Below the pieces are notes generated by a model. The model worked only from the letters and a program-made list of their open reading frames with translations. It had not been told where the DNA came from and did not search any database. The position numbers and the translations under genes were made by a program. Shown in pieces: positions 1 to 5,994 of a stretch of 6,039 nt of DNA (positions are counted from its first letter, which is position 1; every line of letters begins with the position of its first letter). Source of the stretch: Planctomycetales bacterium (GTDB lineage: Bacteria; Planctomycetota; Planctomycetia; Pirellulales; UBA7805); assembly GCA_011772275.1 (NCBI GenBank), contig WVZU01000309.1, positions 1 through 6,039 on the forward strand. Reading direction: 5' to 3'.

Positions 1-450
1 AGTCGTTTCTGGAATTCCTTGACCAGGTGCGCAAGACCGTGATCGACGGCATCGCCCACCAGGATTTTCCGTTTCCACTCCTGGTCGAACGGCTGCAGCC
101 CCCGCGCGACGTCAGCCGCTCGCCTGTCTTTCAGGTCGCCTTCGGCTGGGATAAACCGCGAAGGTTGAGCACCCAGGGGGGGGAGCCGGCGGACGAAGGC
201 CACACGGCCGATCCGGCTGGACTCGGCTTGGAGCCTTTCGCCCTGGGACAACAAGGCGCCGCCTTCGACATGATGCTGATGATGCTGAACATGGGAAACT
301 CCCTGTCCGCCGCCCTGCAATACAACTCCGACCTGTTCGACCAGTCCACCGTGGCTCGCTTCGTCGCCCACTTCCAAACACTGCTTAACAGTATCGTCGC
401 CAATCCCAACCAGGCCCTGGCCGAACTCCCGCTGCTGGACCACGCCGAAC
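1..450 (+). other. Condensation domain, C-terminal end only
   Basis: The first roughly 150 codons carry the late condensation-domain motifs: HQDFPF (57-74), matching the family's HQD.PF motif, and RDVSRSPVFQV (105-137), matching RD.SR.PLFQV. A following stretch ending in LDEWNTT leads into the adenylation domain. The catalytic HHxxxDG motif lies upstream of the window, so neither activity nor subtype (LCL, DCL, starter, Cy) can be judged. In family terms this domain would join the upstream acyl or peptidyl chain to the amino acid on the carrier encoded at about 2030-2240. Confidence 0.9.
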
Positions 451-3400
451 GGAAGCTGATGCTGGACGAGTGGAATACGACCGCGCGTGATTATCCGCGC
501 GACCGCTGCCTGCACGAACTTTTCCAGGCGCAGGTATCGCAAAATCCACACGCCGTCGCGGTGACAAGCGGCGACCAGCAGATGACCTACCAACAGCTGG
601 ACCAGCGAGCCAACCAGCTGGCACGGCACCTGGCCCAGCTGGGCGCCGGCCCGCAGAACCTGGTGGCAATCTGCATCCCACGGTCGGTCGATATGCTGGT
701 CGGCATCCTGGGCATCCTCAAGTCCGGAGCGGCCTACGTCCCCTTGGCCCCCGACACGCCCCACGACCGCATGACGTTTATGCTGCAGCAGTCCCAGGCA
801 CCGGTGCTGCTGACACAAGCCAGCCTGGCCGATGACCTGCCGCCCCACGCCACCCAGCTGGTCCGCATCGATGACGACTGGCCAACGATTGCTCAGCACA
901 GCACCGCAGCACTCGGCCCCACCGCGGAAGCAACGGACCTGGCCTACGTCATCTTTACCTCGGGATCCACGGGCAAACCAAAGGGCGTCCAACTGGAACA
1001 TCGCAGCGTTGTCAATTTCTTGAATTCGATGCGACACCAGCCAGGCATGGGACCGCAGGACACCCTGTTGGCCGTGACCACGTTGACCTTCGATATCTCG
1101 GTCCTCGAATTGTTTTTGCCCCTCAGCGTCGGGGGACAGGTGATCATCGTTGAGGAAAAAGTCGCCTGCGACGGCGGGAAACTGGCGAAACTGCTCAGCC
1201 AGTCCCCCGCCACCATCATGCAGGCCACCCCCGCCACCTGGCGGCTGTTGGTCGAAGCCGGCTGGCCCGGCGATCCGCAGCTGAAGGTGCTGTGCGGCGG
1301 CGAGGCACTCCCCCGCGACCTGGCCGAACAACTGCTGCAACGGTGTGCCAGCCTCTGGAATATGTACGGGCCCACCGAAACAACCATCTGGTCCGCCGTC
1401 GACCGTGTCCAGTCAGGCGATGGGCTCCTGCCGATCGGTCGACCGATCGATAATACACAGATTTATATTCTGGACAGCCGCCTGCAGCCGGTGCCGATCG
1501 GCGTGGCCGGCGACCTGTTTATCGGCGGAGATGGACTGGCGCGGGGATATCTGCATCGCCCGCAACTGACGGCCGAACGGTTCGTACCCAATCCGTTCAG
1601 CACCCAGGCCGCAACGCGGATGTACAAGACGGGCGACATCGCTCGCTACCGCACAGACGGGAACATCGAATTCCTGGGCCGATCCGATTTCCAGGTCAAA
1701 ATCCGCGGGTTCCGGATCGAGCTGGGCGAAATCGAGGCCAACCTCAATCAACACCCGGCTGTCGGGCAAGCCGTCGTGATGGCTCGACAAACCGGTCCCC
1801 GCGAGGATGACAAACAACTGGTGGCCTACCTGGTCCCGGCGGCCGAAACGCAGCCGAATACGACTCAGCTGCGTGAGCACCTCCGTCAGGAACTACCGGA
1901 CTACATGCTGCCGGCCACCTTCCTGTGGCTGGACCGCTTCCCGCTGAACCCGGCCGGCAAGATCAACCGCCAGGCCCTGCCGGAACCAGATACCTCCCGC
2001 CCGGAACTGGAATCCGCCTACGTCCCGCCCCGTAACGACAACGAACAAACGTTGGCCCAGATCTGGGCCGATGTGCTGGGCCTGGAAAAAGTCGGCGTGC
2101 ATGACAACTTTTTCGACCTGGGGGGAGCTTCCATCCAAAGCCTGGAGATCGGGGCGATCGCCGAGCGGGAAGGGCTGAAAATCACCCCCACCATGCTGTT
2201 CCAGCACCCCACCATTGCCGAACTGGCCGCCGCCGCACCCCAGGTAGCCTCTCCCGCACCGCCGACGGCCACCGAAAGCAAAGGGAACGGCAGCGTCGTC
2301 GCCGCCGTCTCTCCAGCGGAACCGACCGCCCCCCAAACGGCCGCTCGGCCCAAACCCAAACGCCGGCGGCGCACGGAAAAGGCCAACACCATCATCGAAA
2401 GCCTGGGCGTTTATTTGCCACCCAAGGAAGTCACGACCAAGGAACTGGTCAAGGGCTGCAAACACAAGATGTGGTTTCCGCTGGAACGCATGACCGGCAT
2501 CCACAGCCGGCGGATGGCCGGGGAGGACGAATTTTCCATCGACCTGGCAATCAAGGCCGTCGACGAATGCTTCCGGCACTCAAAGTACACCGCCGACGAC
2601 ATCGATGTCGTGATCGCCTGCAACATTACGCGGCTGGACAAATTGCGGACGCTGTCGATCGAACCCAATACGTCGTTGCAGCTGAAAAAACATTTCGGCT
2701 TCAAGCATGCCCTCGCCTTTGATGTGACCAACGCCTGCACCGGTATGCTGACGGCAGTCCAGGTCGTGGATGCCATGCTGACGACCGGCCTGATCCGTCG
2801 CGGGCTGGTGGTCAGCGGCGAGTTCATCTCGGATATCGCACGAACCGCTCAACTGGAAATCGACGGATTCATGGACCCGCGCATCGCTTGCTTGACTGTC
2901 GGGGACGCCGGGGCGGCGGTCCTCCTGGAATCGGCCACCAGCCGTGACGTGGGATTTCACGAATTGGACATGTATTCGCTCTCCAAATACTCCCGCATGT
3001 GCATCGGCCGGCTGACCGAGTACCCCCACGGCGGGATCATTATGCACGTGCCGGACCCCATGGAGCACACAGCCGTCGCCGTGCAACATTCCGTCATGCA
3101 CGCGCAGTACATGTTCGATACCAGCGAATGGTCACCCGAGCAGATGGATCACCTGATCATGCATCAAACCTCCGACCGCTCGTTGCGCGATGCCAAACGA
3201 GCGATCAATAAGGCTTTTAAAAAGAAGATCTGCACCGACGCCAACACGATTCATAACATCGCCGAACGTGGGAATACGGCCACCACCACGCACTTCGTGG
3301 CCATCTGGGACAACATCCTCAACGGGACCCTGAAATCCCACGAACATGTGCTGCTGGGCATCACCGGTTCCGGCCAGACGATCGGCACCGGTATCTATAC

Positions 3401-4394
3401 CTTTGATGACCTGCCCGAGCGAATCCGTGCCAGCAAGCAGGAAGAGCGGCATCCGCCAAAGGTGCCTGCCGTCACCAGCCAACCGCCACGGCCACGTACC
3501 GACCTGCCCAGAATCCAGGTGGCCAGCGTCGGCACCATCCCCCTCAGCCAACAAGCTCCGCGCGATACGACCAAAATGACCGCCATGGCCGCACGGGAGT
3601 GCTTGCGAAAATCTTCCTACCAGTGCAGCGACATGGAACTGCTGCTGTTTGCCGGCGTGCTGCGGACCGAATACATCTCCGAACCCGCCATCGCCACGCT
3701 GATCGCCCGCGAATTGCACATGAACGACATCATCCAGTCCGAGTACGATCAGAAAACTTTCTGCTTTGACGTCTACAACGCCGCCATGGGATTCCTGCAC
3801 GCCTGCCAGGTCGCCAGCCAACTCATCCAGGCAGGTACGTTCCGCACGGCCATGATCACTGCCTCCGAAGTGGAAGTGAATGCCGAGTTCTTCGAGGAAC
3901 GGCTGGGACTGTTCGAAACGGCATCGGCATTCATCTTGGATGAATCGGCGGATGGGAAGACGGGCTTCGGCCAGTTCGTTTTCAAATTCTTCCCCCAATA
4001 CTTCGAGGCTCGCCAAGCGACCGGATGGTACAAGGACGGGAAACCGTATTGTGGCTGGCACCTCGACGACCGCTTGAACGACATCTACCTCGAATGCATC
4101 CCCCCCGCCGTCCAGGAACTGCTCGACCTGGAAGGCCTCGACCTGGCCCAGATCAAGGTTGTCCTGCCGTCTCAATTCTCGTCCGCCTTCAACCTTCAAC
4201 TGGCCCACACCCTCCAGGTCCCCGCCGATCGGATCGTCGAAGTCGACCACCGTCAGAAAGATTTGTTTACCTCGTCGTTGCCGTACGCCCTCCAGCATGC
4301 TCAGCAAAACCAACAGGTCCAACCGGGCGACATCGGCCTGATCATCAACGTCGCCTCCGGTGTCCAGGTAGGCTGCGCCACGTATTACTTTTGA
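1..4394 (+). CDS. NRPS (C-A-PCP) fused to tandem KASIII-like domains, 5'-partial
   Basis: The reading frame is open from the first base (first whole codon at 3-5) and ends at TGA 4392-4394. The GTG at 27 falls inside a condensation-domain motif, so it is not the true start. Residue numbers in this annotation count codon 27-29 as 1, giving 1455 residues after it. Domains in order: C-terminal end of a condensation domain (to about residue 140), adenylation (about 155-655), carrier (about 670-740, Ser702), Pro/Ala-rich basic linker (about 740-787), KASIII with Cys904/His1046/Asn1083 (about 789-1140), a second short linker, then a catalytically empty KASIII fold (about 1162-1455). It should be a cytoplasmic assembly-line enzyme; I see no signal peptide or membrane segment. 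No thioesterase or reductase domain follows, and no tailoring gene lies downstream here. NRPS identity is very secure; the product is unknown. Confidence 0.96.
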   Translation, partial: SFLEFLDQVRKTVIDGIAHQDFPFPLLVERLQPPRDVSRSPVFQVAFGWDKPRRLSTQGGEPADEGHTADPAGLGLEPFALGQQGAAFDMMLMMLNMGNSLSAALQYNSDLFDQSTVARFVAHFQTLLNSIVANPNQALAELPLLDHAERKLMLDEWNTTARDYPRDRCLHELFQAQVSQNPHAVAVTSGDQQMTYQQLDQRANQLARHLAQLGAGPQNLVAICIPRSVDMLVGILGILKSGAAYVPLAPDTPHDRMTFMLQQSQAPVLLTQASLADDLPPHATQLVRIDDDWPTIAQHSTAALGPTAEATDLAYVIFTSGSTGKPKGVQLEHRSVVNFLNSMRHQPGMGPQDTLLAVTTLTFDISVLELFLPLSVGGQVIIVEEKVACDGGKLAKLLSQSPATIMQATPATWRLLVEAGWPGDPQLKVLCGGEALPRDLAEQLLQRCASLWNMYGPTETTIWSAVDRVQSGDGLLPIGRPIDNTQIYILDSRLQPVPIGVAGDLFIGGDGLARGYLHRPQLTAERFVPNPFSTQAATRMYKTGDIARYRTDGNIEFLGRSDFQVKIRGFRIELGEIEANLNQHPAVGQAVVMARQTGPREDDKQLVAYLVPAAETQPNTTQLREHLRQELPDYMLPATFLWLDRFPLNPAGKINRQALPEPDTSRPELESAYVPPRNDNEQTLAQIWADVLGLEKVGVHDNFFDLGGASIQSLEIGAIAEREGLKITPTMLFQHPTIAELAAAAPQVASPAPPTATESKGNGSVVAAVSPAEPTAPQTAARPKPKRRRRTEKANTIIESLGVYLPPKEVTTKELVKGCKHKMWFPLERMTGIHSRRMAGEDEFSIDLAIKAVDECFRHSKYTADDIDVVIACNITRLDKLRTLSIEPNTSLQLKKHFGFKHALAFDVTNACTGMLTAVQVVDAMLTTGLIRRGLVVSGEFISDIARTAQLEIDGFMDPRIACLTVGDAGAAVLLESATSRDVGFHELDMYSLSKYSRMCIGRLTEYPHGGIIMHVPDPMEHTAVAVQHSVMHAQYMFDTSEWSPEQMDHLIMHQTSDRSLRDAKRAINKAFKKKICTDANTIHNIAERGNTATTTHFVAIWDNILNGTLKSHEHVLLGITGSGQTIGTGIYTFDDLPERIRASKQEERHPPKVPAVTSQPPRPRTDLPRIQVASVGTIPLSQQAPRDTTKMTAMAARECLRKSSYQCSDMELLLFAGVLRTEYISEPAIATLIARELHMNDIIQSEYDQKTFCFDVYNAAMGFLHACQVASQLIQAGTFRTAMITASEVEVNAEFFEERLGLFETASAFILDESADGKTGFGQFVFKFFPQYFEARQATGWYKDGKPYCGWHLDDRLNDIYLECIPPAVQELLDLEGLDLAQIKVVLPSQFSSAFNLQLAHTLQVPADRIVEVDHRQKDLFTSSLPYALQHAQQNQQVQPGDIGLIINVASGVQVGCATYYF
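490..1990 (+). other. Adenylation domain, predicted glycine-activating
   Basis: The core motifs run in the usual order: A1 MTYQQL (582), A2 LKSGAAYVPL (around 718), A3 TSGSTGKPKGV (about 957-990), A4 FDIS (1089), A5 NMYGPTE (1359), A6 GDGLARGY (around 1527), A7 YKTGDIARY (1623), A8 GRSDFQVKIRGFRIELGEIE (1677-1736) and A10 NPAGK with the catalytic Lys at 1959-1961 (Lys645). All appear intact. Aligning by eye to GrsA PheA, the ten specificity positions read D-I-L-Q-L-G-M-I-W-K. I recall the closely similar DILQLGLIW(K/N) as a glycine code. The domain should form the aminoacyl adenylate with ATP and transfer it to the adjacent carrier. Domain identity is near certain; glycine specificity is moderate because the alignment was manual. 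Confidence 0.9.
2020..2240 (+). other. Peptidyl carrier protein (thiolation) domain
   Basis: The sequence DNFFDLGGASIQSLEI (from 2103) matches the carrier consensus D.FF.LGG.S. The phosphopantetheine-attachment Ser is codon 2130-2132 (Ser702). The usual helix contexts surround it: LAQIWADVLGLEKVGVHD before, and TMLFQHPTIAELA after. It should carry the amino acid or peptide as a thioester and present it to the condensation domain and then, presumably, to the KASIII pair encoded immediately after. Confidence 0.93.
2241..2390 (+). other. Pro/Ala-rich interdomain linker with basic cluster
   Basis: About 50 residues rich in Ala, Pro, Thr and Ser, ending in the basic run KPKRRRRTEK (2352-2381), separate the carrier from the first KASIII domain. 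The composition suggests a flexible tether that lets the carrier reach the downstream active site. A second shorter Pro/Arg-rich linker (about 3432-3509) separates the two KASIII domains. No enzymatic motif is visible in either. Confidence 0.7.
2391..3430 (+). other. KASIII (FabH-like) domain with intact Cys-His-Asn triad
   Basis: This domain begins at about residue 789 with IIESLGVYLPPKEV, a typical KASIII N-terminus. The nucleophile motif DVTNACTGML places Cys904 at 2736-2738. IMHQTSDRS gives His1046 (3162-3164), in the place of FabH PHQAN.R. ERGNTATTT gives Asn1083 (3273-3275). The glycine-rich end ITGSGQTIGTG is also typical. Family knowledge says Cys takes the acyl group, while His and Asn support decarboxylative Claisen condensation with a malonyl unit. 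Some relatives act instead as acyltransferases. In this fusion the likely donor is the thioester on Ser702. Domain identity is strong; the exact reaction is inferred. Confidence 0.9.
3510..4391 (+). other. Second KASIII-fold domain lacking catalytic residues
   Basis: The domain starts at about residue 1162 with IQVASVGTIPL and keeps the thiolase-fold landmarks DVYNAAMGFLHACQV and a glycine-containing C-terminus (INVASGVQVGCATYY). Compared with the preceding domain, the nucleophile Cys is Ala1253 (3783-3785; NAAMG versus NACTG), and the nearby Cys1260 is seven residues off position. The His position is Ser1382 (4170-4172; LPSQFSS versus MHQTSDR). The GNT loop reads as QKD, with no Asn. It therefore cannot use KASIII chemistry. 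A structural or substrate-shaping partner role is likely, as with PqsB beside PqsC or chain-length factors beside ketosynthases. It is a divergent paralogue of the first domain, not an exact duplication. Confidence 0.82.
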
Positions 4395-5194: not shown

Positions 5195-5500
5195 TCAATG
5201 CGCATTTGCCAAAGTGTGCACTTCTTTTTGCAAGGAAGAACCGAGACGATCGCGTTCGGTTTCCAGGTCATAGTGCGACTGAAGATTCAGCCAAAACCGC
5301 TCGGAAGTGTCAAAGTATCTGGCAAGTCGCAAGGCAGTGTTGGCCGTGATGGAACGGGAGCCTTTCACAATTTCATTGATACGACGTGGCGGTACGTTAA
5401 TATCCTTGGCGAGACGGTATTGACTTATGCCAAGCGGCTCCAGAAAGTCGAGCAGCAATATTTCTCCGGGATGCACGGGCGCGAGTTTCTTTGCAGCCAT
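5195..5500 (-). CDS. higA: HigA-type antitoxin, XRE-family HTH (addiction module)
   Basis: This 101-residue protein is the expected size for HigA/VapI antitoxins. It opens with HPGEILLLDFLEPLGIS, the hallmark start of the family. A helix-turn-helix of the XRE/Cro type spans about residues 24-50 (ISQYRLAKDINVPPRRINEIVKG). The conserved tail follows: TALRLARYFDTS, then FWLNLQSHYDLE. It should bind and neutralise the HigB toxin encoded immediately upstream and repress the shared promoter. The ATG at 5500 is preceded by AGGAA about 9 nt away, and that sequence overlaps the higB stop codon TAG (5515-5513), so translation is probably coupled. The intergenic gap is 12 nt. Toxin-first order is typical of higBA. 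The gene is convergent with the synthetase gene. Confidence 0.93.
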   Translation of the reverse strand: MAAKKLAPVHPGEILLLDFLEPLGISQYRLAKDINVPPRRINEIVKGSRSITANTALRLARYFDTSERFWLNLQSHYDLETERDRLGSSLQKEVHTLANAH

Positions 5501-5512
5501 TTTTTTTGATTC

Positions 5513-5794
5513 CTAGTGGTAGTCCGTGATTTCGACATCATACGCATCACCGTCAGACCAAATGAAGCAGATGCGGCATTGATTATTGATGCGAATACTA
5601 TATTGTCCTCTACGATCACCTTTGAGTTTTTCAAGCCGATTACCGGGCGGTACACGCAAATCGTCAACCGACTCAGCAGCATCGAGAATCACGAGCTTCC
5701 GCAACGCAGCGCGTTGGATTTTCTGCGAGAATCCCTTGACCCGAGATCGCCGAAAAATGTTCTCGGTTTGTTGGTCCCGAAAGCTTCGGATCAT
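5513..5794 (-). CDS. higB: HigB-type toxin, RelE superfamily ribosome-dependent mRNA nuclease
   Basis: This 93-residue protein matches HigB in length and pattern: it starts MIRSFRDQQTENIFRR, carries LEKLKGDRRGQYSIRIN and NQCRICFIWSDGDAYDVEI in the middle and late parts, and ends in DYH. Family members cleave mRNA on the translating ribosome; the conserved Arg residues and terminal His region are consistent with that. The position usually occupied by Trp in NQWRICF is Cys here, a possible mild divergence. The frame is open further upstream to 5893, but that extension runs through repeats and lacks family similarity, so ATG 5794 is preferred. GGAG lies just 2 nt from this ATG, an unusually short spacing. 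Sampled lines across higBA have about 45% GC against about 68% in sampled synthetase lines. Confidence 0.92.
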   Translation of the reverse strand: MIRSFRDQQTENIFRRSRVKGFSQKIQRAALRKLVILDAAESVDDLRVPPGNRLEKLKGDRRGQYSIRINNQCRICFIWSDGDAYDVEITDYH

Positions 5795-5801
5795 GTCTCC
5801 G

Positions 5802-5830
5802 ATAATAACGCGATGCGCTAATAACGTCAA
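5802..5830 (-). promoter_or_regulatory. Candidate sigma70-type promoter for higBA
   Basis: On the minus strand, TTGACG (5830-5825) and TATTAT (5807-5802) are separated by 17 nt, each one base from consensus. A start site about 7 nt after the -10 box would fall at or next to the higB ATG (5794), implying a leaderless or near-leaderless transcript unless another promoter lies upstream. HigA autoregulation would be expected to act in this region, but I see no clear palindromic operator. Confidence 0.5.
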
Positions 5831-5848
5831 GCGGCTGCACCGGGGGGT

Positions 5849-5883
5849 AACAAATACTGAACAAATACTGGGAACAAATACTG
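5849..5883 (-). repeat. Three tandem 11-bp repeats upstream of higBA
   Basis: AACAAATACTG occurs at 5849-5859, 5860-5870 and 5873-5883, reading CAGTATTTGTT on the minus strand. The array sits about 19 nt upstream of the candidate -35 box and abuts the outer end of element A copy 3. It belongs to the same GTRTTTGYT family as 4947-4985 in opposite orientation, so a repeat origin is more likely than a dedicated operator. Confidence 0.8.
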
Positions 5884-5994
5884 GGACAAGCAAGGCAATC
5901 TGAGTTGCCCGCCTGATCGAGTGATAATCGCTAAACGACTTTCCCTCAATGGTTTAGAGGCCGCCCGCCGGCTTCCCCCGCATTGCGTGTCCCG
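5883..5994 (+). repeat. Element A, copy 3, with terminal inverted repeat
   Basis: The 100-nt core is 5895-5994. The outer inverted repeat is GGGACAAGCAAGG (5883-5895) against CATTGCGTGTCCC (5981-5993), with 11 of 13 pairs matching. The inner stem is CTAAAC (5931-5936) with GTTTAG (5952-5957) across the same 15-nt loop as copy 1. Relative to copy 1 a C-G pair has become A-T, a compensatory change. It has the same orientation as copies 1 and 2. Confidence 0.85.

Follow-up and report, generated by a model that had tools for sequence, protein, structure and literature searches.

The window described here is a stretch of 6,039 nucleotides from a Planctomycetales bacterium (assembly GCA_011772275.1, contig WVZU01000309.1), corresponding to the whole of one contig, C310, of a fragmented bin (437 contigs, 3.33 Mb, completeness 84.6%). 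Its principal gene (3..4394, forward strand) encodes a protein of 1463 amino acids (aa), in which a non-ribosomal peptide synthetase (NRPS) module is fused to a pair of ketosynthase (KS) domains of the ketoacyl-acyl carrier protein synthase III (KASIII) family. The reading frame is open at its 5' end, on the contig edge, and continues without internal stops to its stop codon; as the assembly ends C310 at that edge, both the condensation (C) domain and any upstream gene are truncated. Pfam identifies the last third of the C domain at 6..461 (PF00668, residues 2-153, profile positions 309-455 of 456), followed by an adenylation (A) domain at 522..1961 (PF00501, residues 174-517, and PF13193, residues 576-653; specificity positions DILQLGMIW) and a peptidyl carrier protein (PCP) at 2046..2234 (PF00550, residues 682-744), with the motif DLGGAS and an expected pantetheine site at Ser710. 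The C domain is complete in a Pirellulales relative (L102), and with C, A and PCP in order the window protein has the composition of an NRPS module. The two KASIII-type domains, KS1 (2382..3407) and KS2 (3495..4391), follow in the same chain, each matching ACP_syn_III and ACP_syn_III_C, with the last matched stretch ending at residue 1461. A type I polyketide synthase (PKS) identity was rejected for the pair, as the window protein did not match PF00109 (ketoacyl-synt) at E 0.001.

This architecture is real, and not an artefact of joined genes. A homolog search with the KS pair scored 7993 proteins, of which 427 reached E ≤ 1e-20, and Condensation, AMP-binding, PP-binding and KASIII domains occurred together in 109 of the best 120 of these 427 (counted by eye, with the window protein as the first row). 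The combination of a stop-free frame, and the same domain set in so many listed homologs, therefore excludes a frame artefact. The fused gene is also present in the complete chromosome of Ktedonosporobacter rubrisoli, with other named carriers being Ktedonobacter racemifer, and Nocardia, Mycolicibacter and Mycobacterium species. Hence the original prediction, made from the window's sequence alone, was correct in describing C-A-PCP followed by a cis-fused KASIII pair in one polypeptide, and the sequencing error that it allowed might have joined two genes can be set aside. Its description of a tandem of KASIII domains holds for the fold of both, but only the first has a catalytic triad, KS2 lacking the Cys and His, and the C domain ahead of them is partial. 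The simple pattern for the PCP motif fits 63 of 97 full-length proteins, and not the other 34. The condensation motif reads HHxxxDF in 64 of the 97 full-length homologs (P0003-P0120), against HHxxxDG in two, with another residue in eight and no pattern match in 23.

Catalytic residues of the two ketosynthase halves

The two halves were compared across 236 aligned rows, comprising the window and 235 of 236 other proteins listed from 427 and 528 matches (one was dropped for its short match), and in the DNA of the 80 best among 108 confirmed named-genome loci; these totals, like the 175 A-domain rows below, count rows that include near relatives, rather than independent events. KS1 has an intact triad of Cys912 (2736-2738), His1054 (3162-3164) and Asn1091 (3273-3275), each conserved in 236 of 236 rows and in all 80 loci. 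The same three sites in the window's KS2 are Ala1261, Ser1390 and Asp1420. Across the alignment, the Cys site of KS2 never contains Cys (Ala in 135 rows, Ser in 60, Gly in 31 and others in 10), the His site never contains His (Pro in 230), and the Asn site is Asp in 222 rows and Asn in 10; the named-genome loci include none with the KS2 Cys or His, and one with the Asn. KS2 does have an invariant Glu1227 (3681-3683), followed by Pro1228, and a conserved Arg1221 (3663-3665), all present in 236 of 236 rows, with the Glu found in 80 and the Arg in 79 of the 80 loci. Judged by these residues, the KASIII domains are an active/inactive pair, and two equivalent KASIII catalysts were rejected as an explanation, since neither the catalytic Cys nor the His is present in KS2 in any row. 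A structure model of the didomain scores pLDDT 93.5 and pTM 0.95.

In the profile alignment of KS2, Glu1227 and the conserved Arg fall respectively on Glu117 (with the residue numbering checked) and the corresponding Arg of OleA. This glutamate of OleA acts from the partner subunit (PMC7064751, PMC4578411), and Glu1227, in the same alignment position, would correspondingly act across the KS1/KS2 interface. This site is Glu-Pro in three Pirellulales OleA proteins, but Cys, Phe or Thr in five FabH-type proteins from genomes with the pair, the FabH of the window's own genome having Cys. The substitution E105A inactivates PpyS (PMC4578411), and E60A inactivates LstB, the partner of LstA in the KASIII heterodimer that acts in making lipstatin; in LstA the triad is Cys128, His271 and Asn305 (PMC12141560).

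An OleA-family search of nine pair-bearing genomes found three pairs of adjacent KASIII genes, in Nocardia amamiensis (L159, L172) and Mycobacterium sp. E2733 (L158). The first protein of each contains the triad. In the second, the Cys site is occupied by Ala, Ala or Thr, and Glu-Pro-Ala is kept, with the Glu at residues 57, 59 and 59. Two of the three active partners have the triad spacing of LstA (Cys-His 143, His-Asn 34), with the third at 140 and 35. The active partner of L172 (1456-2505, reverse strand) has Ala-Pro at the site of OleA Glu117-Pro and its inactive partner keeps the Glu, which may represent a natural, single case of glutamate supply by the inactive half. In a 37-row tree, KS2 groups with the three inactive partners (support 100/98), and KS1 with the three active partners (90/87), while OleA and FabH rows fall outside both groups; this agrees with common descent of the active halves, and of the inactive halves, as tested with the two-gene relatives. 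Of 17 family members on an earlier tree, 12 were kept in this one, and L160, L157 and the Xanthomonas campestris OleA were omitted; the earlier tree had unsettled bootstraps and a long branch (S_L160), and L170 and L176 were dropped from both. Downstream of the L159 pair, on the same contig, are OleC- and OleD-like genes, a gene content like that of a nocardiolactone-type cluster.

Distribution and genomic context of the pair

The tandem also occurs as a stand-alone protein, mostly of 660-700 aa, and the window's own genome contains such a second copy (L002), in one polypeptide and 45% identical. The pair occurs in seven of 97 related genomes (counting the window's own), in frames of 1100-1806 aa, and five of these seven are among the six genomes of the genus g3, from the same family as the window's genome. 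On a tree of KS pairs, the rows nearest to the window are Pirellulales and Planctomycetaceae bins, by which the window's genome is likely a planctomycete of the Pirellulales. The labels of this tree span seven phyla (Planctomycetota, Chloroflexota, Actinomycetota, Bacteroidota, Lentisphaerota, Acidobacteriota and Pseudomonadota), several of these coming from bins, and that of Pseudomonadota from a single bin. The fused form occurs in four of the seven on this tree. Four changes between fused and stand-alone forms are needed on this tree (three to five in bootstraps, with the starred branches forcing only one), and repeated fusion or splitting of the pair during its evolution is suggested by these sequences. 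Other one-protein versions combine the pair with a fatty acyl-AMP ligase (FAAL), an acyl carrier protein (ACP) or a ketoreductase (KR): FAAL-ACP-C-A-PCP-KS1-KS2 is represented by P0036, with L026 and L028 assigned by length and kinship; FAAL-ACP-KS1-KS2 by L071, with which L053 groups; and KR-ACP-KS1-KS2 by P0083, the start of which is cut off. A carrier protein precedes the pair in the C-A-PCP, FAAL-ACP and KR-ACP fusions alike. L053 and L071 are Planctomycetota proteins that have no NRPS part and may represent a minimal two-chain joining enzyme; a sulfotransferase-like gene on the opposite strand adjoins them.

Gene context was scanned in one representative per lineage, with the others assigned by clustering. 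In the Pirellulales (L102), the gene upstream of the synthetase encodes a FAAL, KS, acyltransferase (AT), methyltransferase, KR and two carrier domains, and those downstream a 143-aa protein without a family match, then a phosphopantetheinyl transferase (PPTase). In the window's genome, a FAAL with a broken frame runs off the end of contig C200, and the small gene and PPTase are on C166; this FAAL (L154, 7678-9302), which has a fatty acid desaturase gene just upstream, may be where the upstream gene that the window lacks begins. Small proteins of 143-154 aa, hydrophobic by eye, lie between the synthetase and PPTase in the Pirellulales (L102, 14372-14803; L152, 2740-3186), with a family search of one member giving no match. 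The corresponding site in the window instead holds a HigB-like toxin and HigA antitoxin pair (5195-5893, reverse strand, at the 3' contig end; PF05015 at 68 bits, and TIGR02607 at 108.8 bits, over its cut-off). The mycobacterial cluster L054 has a FAAL, KS, AT, KR and two carriers upstream. One member of a further gene of the mycobacterial clusters (c3) was closest to HpnA, at 278 bits and under the cut-off, against a weak 97 bits for OleD, and was not counted as the latter. The Ktedonobacter cluster (L030) encodes KS-AT-dehydratase (DH), a luciferase-like monooxygenase fused to DH-KR-ACP, and a thioesterase; here the PKS dehydratase is apparently split over two genes (1-6488), with the monooxygenase ahead of the second half.

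The amino acid incorporated by these synthetases was assessed in 175 A-domain rows, comprising the window slice and 174 of 185 candidates (eleven with no match or a short one were dropped), in which the window and some genomes are counted twice. Judged by nine specificity positions, glycine codes (DILQLG or close to it) account for 62 rows and serine codes (D[VP]WHxSL[IV]D) for 101, leaving 12 with others. The window's A domain (DILQLGMIW) reads as glycine, the amino acid that had originally been proposed. For L085, L092 and L095, the best NRPS match of the genome carries another code.

The Bacteroidota contain 11 loci with the pair, of which nine were examined for ole genes, L079 and L085 being outside that set. 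In all nine genomes the pair is a stand-alone protein, in the vicinity of FAAL, luciferase-like monooxygenase, PKS, P450 and usually PPTase genes, and an NRPS of the glycine type is within 18 kb, which in the one cluster scanned is a separate C-A-PCP protein. OleD-like genes are in the pair's cluster, within about 20 kb, in seven of the nine; an OleC-like gene is adjacent in six of these seven, a contig edge cutting it in the seventh, and an OleB-like hydrolase was called in five. The OleD-like proteins of the two loci scanned matched OleD models best. None of the nine genomes encodes a protein that reaches the curated 285-bit cut-off of the OleA model (NCBIfam NF006720), the best other KASIII scoring 170.7 bits, in one genome. 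Hence the KS pair appears to be in OleA's place in these Bacteroidota clusters.

The same nine genomes include sulfotransferase-like genes in four and adenosine phosphosulfate (APS)-kinase-like genes in five, one of each being confirmed by Pfam. A conserved protein of about 480-490 aa (c39; L039 8496-9971, L193 7321-8775, L194 7127-8563, L195 7387-8841) recurs in Bacteroidota clusters, its one scanned member matching no Pfam family at 0.001 and no NCBIfam model at 1e-30, and a DUF6629-type protein (c47) is near in five of seven Bacteroidota clusters. The window's genome has a separate OleA-like protein (446.3 bits, over the cut-off, with X. campestris OleA as the best PDB match). Its gene, on contig C236 (L108, L155), is some 9-10 kb from OleC- and OleD-like genes, and this ole gene set is present alongside the fused-pair system.

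The proposed release step and its alternatives

The pair is probably a one-chain enzyme of the OleA/LstAB type, which would off-load the PCP-bound N-acyl-amino acid by joining it to a second fatty acyl thioester in a non-decarboxylative Claisen condensation. This chemistry is favoured because the KS2 glutamate is invariant, two-gene relatives resemble LstA/LstB, and OleC- and OleD-like genes cluster with the pair in Bacteroidota that have no OleA over the cut-off. The off-loaded chain is likely N-acyl-glycine in the window, with serine in other lineages. Firstly, a fatty acid would be loaded by the FAAL encoded upstream in relatives, and a single PKS module would lengthen it in most lineages. 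Secondly, the C domain would couple this chain to glycine on the PCP, as the module's domains and code suggest. Thirdly, the N-acylglycyl chain would be transferred to Cys912 of KS1. Fourthly, Glu1227 would reach across the interface of the KS1/KS2 pseudo-dimer to remove an alpha proton, like Glu117 in OleA, enabling a C-C bond to form with the second, putative acyl thioester. Release of a beta-keto acid, and subsequent loss of CO2, would then generate an alpha-acylamino ketone, or in Bacteroidota the acid may be passed to the OleD-, OleC- and OleB-like enzymes encoded in the clusters.

A new off-loading or elongation step after the aminoacyl carrier, as the original prediction proposed, is therefore likely from these comparisons, but its example of a Claisen condensation with a malonyl donor is less so, the invariant KS2 Glu, the LstA/LstB-like relatives and the Bacteroidota OleC- and OleD-like genes favouring a fatty acyl thioester instead. 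With a malonyl donor, KS1 would be a decarboxylating ketosynthase adding two carbons from malonyl-ACP or malonyl-CoA to the N-acylglycyl chain, with KS2 resembling a chain-length factor, and the amide could close a pyrrolidinedione (tetramic-type) ring. Such an enzyme would fit the FabH-type Cys-His-Asn triad on KS1, the FabH enzymes that are the closest PDB sequences to this half, and profile scores in which OleA is not ahead of FabH; it is nevertheless unlikely, given that the five FabH-type proteins checked have no KS2-like Glu-Pro at the OleA Glu117 site, and that both the OleC/OleD neighbours and the two-gene relatives indicate OleA chemistry. It is decidedly unlikely that the pair instead acts as an acyltransferase, or forms a C-N or C-O bond, in the manner of PqsBC or CerJ, with an external amine or alcohol receiving the chain from the PCP. 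PqsC, PqsBC and PqsD are among many KASIII matches, with the fold matches (VIA-align) covering model residues 1-351, the KS1 half, and PqsBC is likewise a heterodimer of active and inactive KASIII subunits; however, the full KS1 triad is present in all 236 rows, and the conserved KS2 glutamate should be dispensable for enzymes of this kind. The loss of catalytic residues from one of the two domains could also be expected of a non-functional C-terminal passenger or a frame artefact, to which we give almost no credence, in light of the recurrence of the domain set among the listed homologs, the KS1 catalytic residues at all 80 named loci, and the stop-free frame.

Several observations weigh against OleA-type joining by the pair. 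In total profile score neither half favours OleA over FabH: the KS1 profile scores 77.6 bits against the window genome's own FabH and 76.7 against X. campestris OleA (best domain), and the KS2 profile 70.1 bits for FabH, 65.5 for OleA and 33.7 for the OleA of the same genome (whole sequence). The window's KS1 itself reaches 108.5 bits, against the OleA cut-off of 285, and the Cys-His-Asn triad alone is also compatible with decarboxylating KASIII enzymes. KS1 also has Glu at the site of Glu1227 in 234 of 236 rows, for which the proposed mechanism has no need. The likeness to LstA/LstB rests on residue spacing and relatives, and the inactive partner in L158 has a Cys one position past the Cys site. 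Two of the nine Bacteroidota genomes lack OleC and OleD in the cluster (one has both on another contig, and one neither), and neither lies beside the pair in the Pirellulales genomes searched, which have a separate OleA. The OleC-like (584-634 bits) and OleD-like (375-417 bits) proteins of the Bacteroidota clusters are below the NCBIfam equivalog cut-offs of 850 and 580; in the two loci scanned, the OleC-like protein matches a general ligase model best (700-710 bits, over its cut-off), with two olefin beta-lactone synthetase models next, and the naming of OleB rests on the hydrolase family only. Lastly, an NRPS match was absent at E 1e-40 from four of 17 genomes searched, all outside the Bacteroidota, these being two Lentisphaeria and two with FAAL-ACP-KS1-KS2, in which the pair is stand-alone or FAAL-ACP-fused.

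More tentatively, it is conceivable, if on balance doubtful, that these synthetases represent an assembly-line route to sphingolipid-like lipids, in which the fused OleA-like pair couples carrier-bound N-acylated glycine or serine with a second fatty chain, an alpha-acylamino ketone resulting once CO2 is lost. The product would have the skeleton of 3-ketoceramide with serine, or of its 1-deoxymethyl analogue with glycine, made without the pyridoxal phosphate (PLP) enzyme serine palmitoyltransferase, and this skeleton would be the same whichever partner were the nucleophile. Consistent with this are the 163 of 175 A-domain rows that read as glycine or serine, and the FAAL-ACP-C-A-PCP-KS1-KS2 proteins, which contain all the parts for combining one amino acid with two fatty chains. 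In Bacteroidota, OleD, OleC and OleB might instead turn the same intermediate into a beta-lactone or alkene, possibly in sulfated form.

Known ends of NRPS and PKS lines are hydrolysis, cyclisation, reduction and amine capture. If the pair does act as proposed, head-to-head joining to a second fatty chain would be an added release mode for assembly lines, linking them to olefin and beta-lactone (Ole) chemistry, and two-tailed amino-lipids would be predicted in Planctomycetota, Chloroflexota, Actinomycetota and Bacteroidota.

Comparison with known KASIII systems

The active/inactive arrangement seen in the window is shared with PqsBC, of the Pseudomonas quinolone signal. Unlike the window enzyme, PqsBC consists of two proteins, has no NRPS, and forms a bond to an amine-bearing acceptor. 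The original prediction could also have been undone by an earlier characterisation of this architecture with a known product, but searches for it in open-licence PMC text, covering listings and the openings of abstracts, found no description of an NRPS-fused KASIII pair, with papers on LstAB, OleA and FAAL surfacing instead. Terms such as KASIII, FabH and Planctomycet are absent from the main text of a FAAL review (PMC11837247) and a hybrid-lipid survey (PMC13291983).

OleA of X. campestris (PDB 3ROW) shares with the pair the KASIII fold, the triad and a glutamate at position 117, which in OleA is contributed by the partner subunit (PMC7064751, PMC4578411). It differs in being a stand-alone homodimer with both subunits active, and the window's KS1 is below the OleA cut-off. 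The pyrone ketosynthases PpyS, MxnB and CorB similarly join two chains head-to-head, and PpyS requires E105 (PMC4578411); unlike the window pair, they make pyrones, with PpyS modelled as a homodimer and Val at the Glu site of MxnB and CorB.

A close parallel in organisation is with LstA/LstB, in which an active subunit with Cys-His-Asn is partnered by one with an essential glutamate (E60), and two acyl chains are joined without decarboxylation (PMC12141560), as we infer for the window pair. Whereas LstA and LstB are separate proteins acting on acyl-CoAs, the window pair is one chain, fused to or beside an NRPS carrier. One half of the pair has Cys-His-Asn, and the other lacks the Cys and His but has the glutamate, in a single polypeptide both in the window and in L002. 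In the synthesis of lipstatin, the amino acid is added after chain condensation, whereas in the window system it is likely installed beforehand. Hence the chemistry, and the logic of splitting it between two subunits, are already known from OleA and LstAB; what is new within the literature searched is their fusion into one chain, placed at the end of an NRPS module. As a single chain, the fusion also offers a model of such active/inactive KASIII pairs, perhaps simpler to express and solve than a heterodimer.

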